Assembly (NCBI RefSeq): GCF_000970045.1
Contig: NZ_CP009505.1
Location: 2,170,001 to 2,234,000 of the forward strand
Source of the DNA: Methanosarcina sp. MTP4
GTDB lineage: Archaea > Halobacteriota > Methanosarcinia > Methanosarcinales > Methanosarcinaceae
Reading direction: 5' to 3'
DNA length: 64,000 nucleotides
Shown here in pieces: positions 5,709-34,237 of the stretch. Made by a program: the position numbers and the translations under genes. The notes under the pieces were generated by a model. That model made no database searches and was not told the origin of the DNA. It saw only the letters and a program-made list of their open reading frames with translations. The stretch's first letter is position 1; every line of letters begins with the position of its first letter.

Positions 5709-5929
5709 TTACCGAATCTTCCTTGGGTTTTTTATGCAAATACGGAAATTCCCATATTTAGTGCTATCCTTATTGGAGTAGTTTCTTTTTGAATTAAATA
5801 CAATTCGAAAGGATTCTAAATGATTTGAAATGGAGAAACTGAAGACATCTGACTGAGATTTATACCCAATTTAAGAAAGAAACGGCATCAATAACAGCCA
5901 TTAATAGTGATTCCCGGGTGTTATCCTCC

Positions 5930-5968
5930 GGAAACCGGAATTATTCCGGTTTAAAAACAAAAATACAT
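5930..5968 (-). terminator. Palindrome downstream of the ABC-2 permease gene
   Basis: AACCGGAAT and ATTCCGGTT form a near-perfect palindrome (about 5934-5952) just after the permease stop on the minus strand. It is a plausible transcript end or 3' stabilising hairpin. No long T run follows. Confidence 0.4.
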
Positions 5969-6733
5969 TTATATCATCTCTGCCCTCCGGAAGAAATAAA
6001 CACTGGCGCAGACCATCAGGACCGACAGTGTTAAAAGAATACATACGTCCAGAAGAATTGAGAATTCACAATGACCAATCAATACCCCCCGCAAAGCATC
6101 CACACCGTATGTCAGCGGATCAAAATAAGACAGAATCCTTATCGGGGCAGGCAAATTTGAAACCGGAAATAAAGCTCCGGATAAGAGAAAGAGGGGAAAT
6201 GCAATAAAATTAATAATTGTGCTAAACCCGTGAAAATCCTTTAGTACGGATGACAAAATCAATCCTATATTTATAAAGGTTATCGATATAAGAACCATTA
6301 TCACGACAGAGGACAGGATCGCAGAAATAAAAGGCAGCCTAAAACCAAGTAATACCGACATCATCATAATAATAAGGGCCTGAAGGATTGATGTGGTCGC
6401 ACTTCCGGAGATCATCCCGAGAACAATAGAAACCCTGCTTGCAGGAGTCACCATAACCTCTTTTAAAAATCCGAACTGCTTGTCCATTATGACACTCATA
6501 CCTGCATAAGCAGCCGTAAAAAGAAGAGTCATCCCGATAATACCCGGCACCAGATACTGAAAATATCCTATAGATTCAGGCAGCCCCGGAAATTCAACTT
6601 TTCTAAAGCCCATACCCTGAAAGATCAGCATAAAAGCCGGCATGGCAATAGCGCCCACTACCCTTGATTTTGCCCTGAAATACTTTATCATCTCACGCCG
6701 CCAGAGAACATATACGACTTTTCCCTGAATCAT
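5969..6733 (-). CDS. ABC-2 type exporter permease
   Basis: This 254-residue integral membrane protein has about six hydrophobic helices and the ABC-2 layout of DrrB-like exporters. The conserved segment LLSGALFPVSNLPAPIR, followed by SYFDPLTYGVDALRG at about 190-220, is the classical ABC-2 signature. It should form the pore for the ATPase encoded just upstream, and the two genes overlap by four bases (ATGA), which implies translational coupling. The substrate cannot be told from sequence; drugs, lipids or polysaccharide are typical for the family. Confidence 0.9.
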   Translation of the reverse strand: MIQGKVVYVLWRREMIKYFRAKSRVVGAIAMPAFMLIFQGMGFRKVEFPGLPESIGYFQYLVPGIIGMTLLFTAAYAGMSVIMDKQFGFLKEVMVTPASRVSIVLGMISGSATTSILQALIIMMMSVLLGFRLPFISAILSSVVIMVLISITFINIGLILSSVLKDFHGFSTIINFIAFPLFLLSGALFPVSNLPAPIRILSYFDPLTYGVDALRGVLIGHCEFSILLDVCILLTLSVLMVCASVYFFRRAEMI

Positions 6734-32071: not shown

Positions 32072-32890
32072 ATGAAAGAGAAAATCCAGAAAAATAGCTG
32101 TCAGAAAAGCAATTCAAGCATTCAGGAAGATAGCTCCCGAGACCCTGTCATCAAAAAAATTTACGATTACCTGCTGGACGTATACGGCCCTCAGGGCTGG
32201 TGGCCCCTGACAGAACTCCACGTAAATGGCGGGTCCAATCCCACAAAAACCGGTTCCGTGCAGGGATACCACCCGGGTGATTACACTTACCCCCGGAACC
32301 GTACGCAGCAGTTCGAAATAATCTGCGGAGCCCTGCTTACCCAGAACACAAGCTGGCCCCAGGTCGAAACCGCCCTTCTCAACCTCAAAAAGCTAAAAGC
32401 CCTCTCTCCCGAAGGAATCCTTGCTCTTGATCCCGAAACCTTAAAAGAAGCCATCAGACCCGCAGGCTACTATAACCAGAAGGCCGGCCGCCTCAAAGCC
32501 CTTGCCGAATGGTTTTCAGACCTGCAGGAAAAAACCCCGGAAAGATCCCCGGAAAGATCCACTGAGATAATCCAGGGAATTCCATCCCGGGAAGAGCTCC
32601 TCTGCCTGAAAGGCGTAGGACCCGAAACCGCTGATTCGATTCTTCTCTATGCTTTTAAGCGACCCTCCTTTGTCGTTGACGCCTACACCAGAAGAATAAC
32701 GGCTAACCTGGGTCTGGCCGGGGAAAAGGCAAAATACGACGAAATTAAGGCCCTCTTTGAAGAAAACCTTCCTGAGGATACGGTCCTATATCAGGAATAC
32801 CACGCCATGCTCGTGGAACATGCAAAGCGGCATTATAAGAAGAAGGGAGCTTACGGAGAATGTCCACTTCTGAAGATTGTCGGGGATTAA
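32072..32890 (+). CDS. Endonuclease III-superfamily DNA glycosylase, MagIII-like (COG2231)
   Basis: This 272-residue base-excision repair enzyme has the HhH-GPD fold: ICGALLTQNTSWPQVETAL, then RPAGYYNQKAGRLKAL, the helix-hairpin-helix LKGVGPETADSILLYAF, and the catalytic Asp in VVDAYTRRI. The C-terminus has a single Cys (GECPL) instead of four, so the Fe-S cluster of endonuclease III is absent, as in the 3-methyladenine glycosylase MagIII. It should excise alkylated bases such as 3-methyladenine. An insert GSNPTKTGSVQGYHPGDYTY near 60-80 is unusual. The gene stands alone. Confidence 0.9.
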   Translation: MKEKIQKNSCQKSNSSIQEDSSRDPVIKKIYDYLLDVYGPQGWWPLTELHVNGGSNPTKTGSVQGYHPGDYTYPRNRTQQFEIICGALLTQNTSWPQVETALLNLKKLKALSPEGILALDPETLKEAIRPAGYYNQKAGRLKALAEWFSDLQEKTPERSPERSTEIIQGIPSREELLCLKGVGPETADSILLYAFKRPSFVVDAYTRRITANLGLAGEKAKYDEIKALFEENLPEDTVLYQEYHAMLVEHAKRHYKKKGAYGECPLLKIVGD

Positions 32891-32930: not shown

Positions 32931-33038
32931 CTAACTGTTAACTCCTGGAACTGGCATTGCATTTAAAGGCATTTTAATGAACCATAATCCCAGCACGACC
33001 AATAGTAAACCAGCAATAGTCCCTATAAATCTCAGCAT
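32931..33038 (-). CDS. Micro-protein A: 35-residue single-helix membrane peptide
   Basis: The reading frame starts MLRFIGTIAGLLLVVLGLWF and ends at TAG, giving 35 residues with one hydrophobic helix. I propose it as a gene because a second frame at 33291-33386 encodes a related peptide: M-L-K/R-F-I-x-x-x-A-G-L-L-L-V-x-L-x-L-x-F is shared. The upstream DNA is also alike (ATAAATTTT, then TTATTATGA, on the plus strand). An in-frame stop nine codons or less upstream excludes a longer product. No clear Shine-Dalgarno is present, so a leaderless or short-leader transcript is likely. Confidence 0.5.
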   Translation of the reverse strand: MLRFIGTIAGLLLVVLGLWFIKMPLNAMPVPGVNS

Positions 33039-33290
33039 AAAAGATGATACGGTTCATTGCGCATAAATTTTGTTATTATGACATAATATATGAGGTTGGT
33101 CTGCTAAAATAAGAACTAGCAACAAAACCAGTAACTACGAAACCCCGGCAGAAAAAGGAAAAGGTTTCTATAAATATTGAACACTTTTGAGAATGTCATT
33201 TAAGTTAAGGAAGCGTGCCTTATCCGACAAGAAGTCAACAACCAGCCTTAAAAAAAGCCGGGTAAGAGAGGTTTCAAGCCGCTGGCTATC

Positions 33291-33386
33291 TTAAGGGCAG
33301 GGAATTGTATTCAGAAACAACCTGGTAAACCCAAGGCACAGCCCTACCAAAAGTAAACCGGCAAGAGCTTTGATGAATTTTAACAT
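33291..33386 (-). CDS. Micro-protein B: 31-residue single-helix membrane peptide
   Basis: It starts MLKFIKALAGLLLVGLCLGF and ends at TAA after 31 residues. It has one hydrophobic helix with a basic residue near the start. It is a clear paralogue of micro-protein A, 250 bases away in the same orientation, and the similarity reaches about 110 bases upstream. A run of seven T on the minus strand (about 33250-33256) beyond its stop could end the transcript. The function is unknown; small hydrophobic peptides of this kind include membrane-complex subunits and type I toxins. Confidence 0.5.
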   Translation of the reverse strand: MLKFIKALAGLLLVGLCLGFTRLFLNTIPCP

Positions 33387-33742
33387 AAAATGAGTAAGGA
33401 AACATACATAGATAAATTTTCTTATTATGATATATTTAATTAAGTATATTTAGCAAGAAATATTGCAGTTCCAAAACCATAAAATCCGGGTAGAAAAAGC
33501 TCTGAATTTTGGGATCAAAACAGTAATGAGTTCACGTGGATAATTGCTCATTGCAGCTTTTCTGCAACCTGAAGATGGGATACAAAAAGGTGTGGGGGAG
33601 AGAAAGCAATTTCTCGTCTCTAATCAATGTTACGGAATGCACAGAAAAAATCAGGCAATTCCTGTAAACAATTTGTTCATCAAGCGATTCTTTTCGTCAA
33701 GTGATTCTATTTATCAAGCGGTTCACTTATGTCGCAATTTCC
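33387..33742. other. Spacer with micro-protein promoter region
   Basis: The part next to 33386 is the region conserved with the other micro-protein (33400-33500). Beyond it nothing is recognised; short plus-strand frames here lack start signals. Confidence 0.35.
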
Positions 33743-33955
33743 TTAGCCGAGTTTTACTCTGTAGCTGTCGGAGAGTTCTGTCTCAAGGACCCCTTCATGG
33801 ACCATCTTCTCAATCTCGTTTTCAACCTGACCGTAGGTAAACGGGTGGTCATGCGAAATTGCTGAAATCAGATCCGGGCTTGGGCAGGACCTTGTCGGAA
33901 ATGCTTCCCTGAACATTGCTACATTTTCTATAATTAAATTTCTGAGTTTTTCCAT
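33743..33955 (-). CDS. Small winged-helix-like hypothetical protein
   Basis: A 70-residue soluble protein: MEKLRNLIIENVAMFREAFP, then a helix-turn-helix-like part (SPDLISAISHDHPFTYGQVENEIEKMV) and a C-terminal beta pair (GVLETELSDSYRVKLG). This pattern fits a minimal winged helix. ATG at 33955 has GAAGGTG eight bases upstream. TATA-like AATTATATAATG lies above on the minus strand (about 34010-34025). No family recognised. Confidence 0.7.
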   Translation of the reverse strand: MEKLRNLIIENVAMFREAFPTRSCPSPDLISAISHDHPFTYGQVENEIEKMVHEGVLETELSDSYRVKLG

Positions 33956-34237
33956 TTTGTTATCACCTTCTTTTATAGTCATTTCTTTAATTATATATTG
34001 ATTTCTCTACAATTATATAATGCACGACCTCACATATATAGATTGTCCAAATAAACTATATAGTGAATGAATTTATAGGTATTTTGGATTCGGAGAAGGA
34101 AAAAATATTCACCTATAACCCGTCCATTGGTTTTTTCGTCCCAAAAATGAAGCAGAAAAACAAAGCAAAAAAGAGAAGTAGAAAAGTGAAGCAGAAAAAT
34201 GAAAAAACAAAATGAGAAAAATCAGGGCAGGGTTCTC

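Follow-up and report, generated by a model that had tools for sequence, protein, structure and literature searches.

Two neighbouring microgenes, A and B, in the window (the whole 64,000-nucleotide stretch of Methanosarcina sp. MTP4 DNA analysed here) are protein-coding paralogues, and the short peptides that they encode are under selection. Microgene A (32931..33038, minus strand) is an ORF of 35 amino acids, MLRFIGTIAGLLLVVLGLWFIKMPLNAMPVPGVNS, and microgene B (33291..33386, minus strand) is an ORF of 31 amino acids, MLKFIKALAGLLLVGLCLGFTRLFLNTIPCP. Both lie, in the order B, A, between two genes that serve as synteny markers: a gene of 79 amino acids upstream of B (33743..33982, minus strand), which has no Pfam or NCBIfam family, and a HhH-GPD base-excision repair gene (32072..32890, plus strand; Pfam PF00730, E 4.3e-19), which is convergent with A. 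A gap-free alignment of the two peptides covers 31 residues, of which 53-55% are identical. Their BLOSUM62 score is 76, shuffled sequences average 21 (sd 4.2) and none of 5000 shuffles reached it, and B is the sole match when A is used as a query against its own whole genome (E = 8e-4). The pair of minus-strand frames with shared residues, 35 and 31 codons long, that a preliminary description had picked out by eye is borne out by the ORFs and by these shuffles. The copies have also diverged, A carrying W19 and no cysteine and B carrying two cysteines, a difference suggesting that each peptide has its own partner or condition.

The genus sample consists of four genomes, the window's own (G000) and those designated G001, G002 and G003, to which a more distant Methanosarcina, G096, adds one further relative. 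Column shuffling of a six-sequence alignment of A, B and their relatives, scored in all six frames, gives z = 4.68 (P 0.0003) for the A/B frame, with the five other frames ranging from -2.9 to 2.1. The same score is 2.7 for A from the window, G001 and G096, and 3.9 for the A-B pair alone. Between A and B the synonymous sites are saturated (pS 0.79) while pN is only 0.26, in keeping with the earlier claim that codons change while residues are kept. The dN/dS ratio is below 1 in every pair, from 0.05 to 0.66, with several single pairs individually non-significant. B of G001 and B of G002 differ by six synonymous changes and one nonsynonymous change (dN/dS 0.05), and the constraint appears weak in some other comparisons, as for B of the window and G001 (0.66). 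Between these same two genomes the coding sequences are 90.6% identical and the adjacent non-coding DNA 80-84%, the sole indel in either gene falls at the C-terminal end of A, and the 31 codons shared by all six genes contain no indel. Selection on the peptide, which the preliminary description had proposed from the pair itself, is thus supported across the six sequences.

The products of A and B are probably single-span membrane peptides, as judged from their composition and a predicted structure. Each has a basic N-terminus, a hydrophobic segment from about residue 7 to 21, a lysine or arginine at position 22 and then a short tail that carries a conserved I/M-P-x-P motif near the C-terminal end (P-x-S in one G001 copy). 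Kyte-Doolittle hydropathy over 19 residues is 2.0-2.3 in all six members, and AlphaFold2, run on the single sequence of A, predicts one helix over residues 2-27 with a mean pLDDT of 86, in agreement with the one helix per peptide proposed earlier. No convincing family match was found in Pfam, NCBIfam, PHROGs or PADLOC. Pfam yields nothing up to E = 10, where very short models are insensitive, and NCBIfam returns two weak non-toxin matches far under the cut-off. A mobile origin was considered and rejected, as searches of viral contigs and plasmids yielded no relative.

Upstream of each gene lies a copy of a repeated box. The box of A (33063..33081, minus strand; TCATAATAACAAAATTTAT) ends 24 nt before the ATG and that of B (33412..33430, minus strand; TCATAATAAGAAAATTTAT) ends 25 nt before it. 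In the longer form TATGTCATAATAACAAAATTTAT / TATATCATAATAAGAAAATTTAT the two agree in 21 of 23 positions, a likeness that none of 1000 shuffles equalled, and the 19-base core TCATAATAANAAAATTTAT occurs exactly twice in the 4.2-Mb genome, both times at this locus. A second block, CTTTTTCTRCCSGGRTTT, which lies some 113-119 nt ahead of the ATGs, matches at 15 of 18 bases and is marginal (P about 0.02); outside these two segments a shuffle comparison detects no likeness between the upstream regions. The duplicated upstream DNA noted earlier is therefore solid for the 23-base core, and its extent of some 110 bases was overstated. The boxes are probable BRE/TATA promoter elements. Archaeal BRE/TATA elements generally lie about 25 nt from the start site, so a box 24-25 nt before the ATG would put the start of transcription only a few bases from the ATG. 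The A and B mRNAs would accordingly be leaderless or nearly so, and no Shine-Dalgarno sequence is visible before either gene. Methanolobus psychrophilus, another member of the family, has its BRE/TATA elements about 19-22 nt away from the start site, and 16% of its transcripts lack a leader (PMC5378194). A scan for sigma-70-type promoters was set aside, being unsuited to archaea and giving a result at chance level.

The distribution of the pair is narrow and patchy. Both genes are present in G000 and G001, where the A orthologues are 82-85% identical, and the B orthologues of G001 and G002 are 83% and 84% identical to B of the window. G002 has B alone; the position of A is occupied by an IscB gene of 459 amino acids (NF040563, E 3.7e-104), with no remnant of A seen in its flanks. 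G003 has neither gene, its intergenic gap measuring about 343 bp, and in genomes without the microgenes the corresponding gap is only about 250-340 bp. Wherever a relative carries the locus the frames are kept; one congener and most Methanosarcina genomes lack it. With dN/dS also under 1 in every pair, the outcome that the preliminary description had named as a refutation (frames not kept in relatives, or dN/dS near 1) was for the most part not observed. G096 is the sole homologue-bearing genome in the larger Methanosarcina group searched, with one A-like gene, MFKLIHTVSDLLLIGMGIWITKMLMFIIPSP, that adjoins the same HhH-GPD gene and is preceded by a similar box, TATAATAAAATTTAAG. Its E-value in a single-sequence search is about 0.5, and its strong profile E-value arises by construction, as the gene was itself in the profile; none of 5000 shuffles reached its score. 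Because of the synteny, the similar box and the shuffle result, we regard it as a true relative. Profile searches across the family and the class yielded no convincing member beyond G000, G001, G002 and G096, and the other Methanosarcinaceae genomes searched are without A and B. Weak profile matches in G177 and G181 were dismissed as chance, since they fall inside long frames (186 and 422 amino acids), one with a stop, and no similar motif turned up in L192.

In a tree of the HhH-GPD protein, G096 is sister to the four congeners, and G003 is the first branch among these with modest support. The simplest history has one origin before the split of G096, a duplication around that time, and the later loss of both genes from G003 and of A from G002. 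The G096 peptide scores 67 against A and 58 against B; because it is closer to A, G096 may have lost B. That loss is less certain because the assembly of G096 breaks in the gap between the 79-amino acid gene and the microgene, at a 16-base tandem repeat, GAATTGAATAACGTTT (L094:1-130 and the end of L109).

What the peptides do is best approached through small proteins of methanogens and bacteria, which often bind and tune bigger membrane complexes. Because such behaviour is common among small single-span proteins, we propose, at roughly even odds, that the separately transcribed, leaderless genes A and B encode single-span membrane microproteins acting as modulators of a membrane complex. An old local duplication would have given rise to paralogous A and B and carried the promoter along, so that each gene would be transcribed from its own TATA-type promoter, with its 3' edge 24-25 nt before the ATG. 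The products, probably membrane-spanning peptides with a basic N-terminus, may then attach to a complex of membrane proteins and adjust its activity, in a role that would be a dispensable, lineage-specific adjustment and not a core function. The modulator role is drawn by analogy, because no membrane complex is encoded next to A and B: a Pfam survey of the neighbouring genes found none, and the locus neighbours (the repair protein, rubrerythrin, a nitroreductase-like protein and a histidine kinase) give no pointer to a partner. The same survey bears on the possibility, raised in the preliminary description, that A and B are small membrane subunits. Structural subunits in the manner of KdpF or CydX, instead of regulators, are likewise about 30-40 amino acids long with one helix, and annotation often misses them. 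Unlike these subunits, A and B stand outside any membrane-complex operon and match no Pfam or NCBIfam family (very short Pfam models being insensitive), and their absence from most relatives is not what one would expect of a structural component that serves a shared complex. A subunit role is conceivable but unlikely, no adjacent membrane complex backing it. Slightly more weight, still well short of a likely account, goes to the idea that A and B are young, marginally selected genes, which would have arisen from intergenic sequence in the clade's ancestor and been kept temporarily with little specific function. The very narrow range, the short gap in genomes without them, the absence in G003 and the replacement of A in G002 all suit recent birth, but selection has acted on the residues through a duplication whose synonymous sites are saturated, and the promoter box has been kept.

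The dispensable nature of the locus and its patchy occurrence would also suit archaeal type I toxins, that is, membrane-damaging hydrophobic peptides silenced by antisense RNAs from the opposite strand, which the preliminary description had likewise suggested. The bacterial toxins Fst, Ldr, TisB and others resemble A and B in having about 30 amino acids and a single hydrophobic helix and in often standing in tandem. A plus-strand A/T-rich, TATA-like stretch near 33170 could start an RNA across B, but the alignment shows it altered in G001 and missing in G002, and no antisense promoter conserved in relatives was found on the opposite strand. RNA folding of the spacer and leaders is not significant on either strand (z of -0.94 and 0.05 for the spacer), Rfam has no match at the locus, and neither NCBIfam nor PADLOC relates A or B to a known type I toxin family. 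Unlike the bacterial toxins, A and B have an apparently leaderless promoter layout and an archaeal host; because they seem to lack both a 5' leader and a Shine-Dalgarno sequence, the usual target of an antisense RNA would be missing. Type I toxin-antitoxin systems are reported so far from only a few bacterial phyla (PMC12390103). The toxin proposal is consequently not supported and we consider it improbable; the stricter claim that the two genes form a tandem of membrane toxins controlled by RNA antitoxins, and so the first archaeal type I system that we know of, is very improbable. A duplicated non-coding RNA with incidental frames is hardly credible either. The spacer between B and A (33100..33290, minus strand) is indeed conserved, 84% identical between the window and G001 with no indels, but the coding signal is in one frame only, structure and Rfam signals are absent, and the coding sequences are better conserved than the spacer.

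By type, A and B fall among the numerous lineage-specific small proteins that are coming to light in Methanosarcina (PMC11456600). In Methanosarcina mazei, translated unannotated sORFs are established, including a membrane-associated one (PMC11456600). Small membrane proteins found there by Ribo-seq, such as sORF_05, resemble A and B in being short, missed by annotation and often genus-restricted, with a hydrophobic helix; sORF_05 itself is part of a methylamine operon that includes a permease (PMC11456600). A and B differ in being a freestanding pair with no linkage of this kind, and G096 is the only one of the Methanosarcina genomes searched in which a homologue was found. MtrI and MtrR of M. 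mazei are lineage-restricted sORF proteins that bind and modulate a membrane complex (PMC12774963, PMC13370731). MtrI has 68 amino acids and a zinc ribbon, and MtrR has 49, is hydrophilic and has no transmembrane domain (PMC12774963, PMC13370731); neither is membrane-spanning, in contrast to the hydrophobic single-helix peptides A and B. The pair is new at the family level and ordinary in kind. It adds to the Methanosarcina-type small proteome a microprotein family without a model in the four protein-family libraries searched, and by itself does not change the understanding of how such proteins work. The natural series of strains with both copies, with A replaced by IscB and with neither makes function testable by strain comparison.

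Several further features of the locus were observed. Within the spacer, a stretch at about 33180-33235 is nearly invariant in three genomes and shows neither a coding signal nor a significant fold; it is possibly a 3' end or a regulatory element. An opposite-strand frame of 33 basic-rich residues ending at 33294 was rejected as a gene: it is open in the window and G002, is interrupted by a stop in G001 and has a coding z of about 0. The IscB gene, for an RNA-guided endonuclease, lies at L010:6761-8140 on the minus strand, and the arrangement in G002 is identical. The 79-amino acid gene adjoining B is kept in nearly all Methanosarcina genomes searched, and in G002 (L010, about 5842-6099) it is apparently frameshifted into two pieces.
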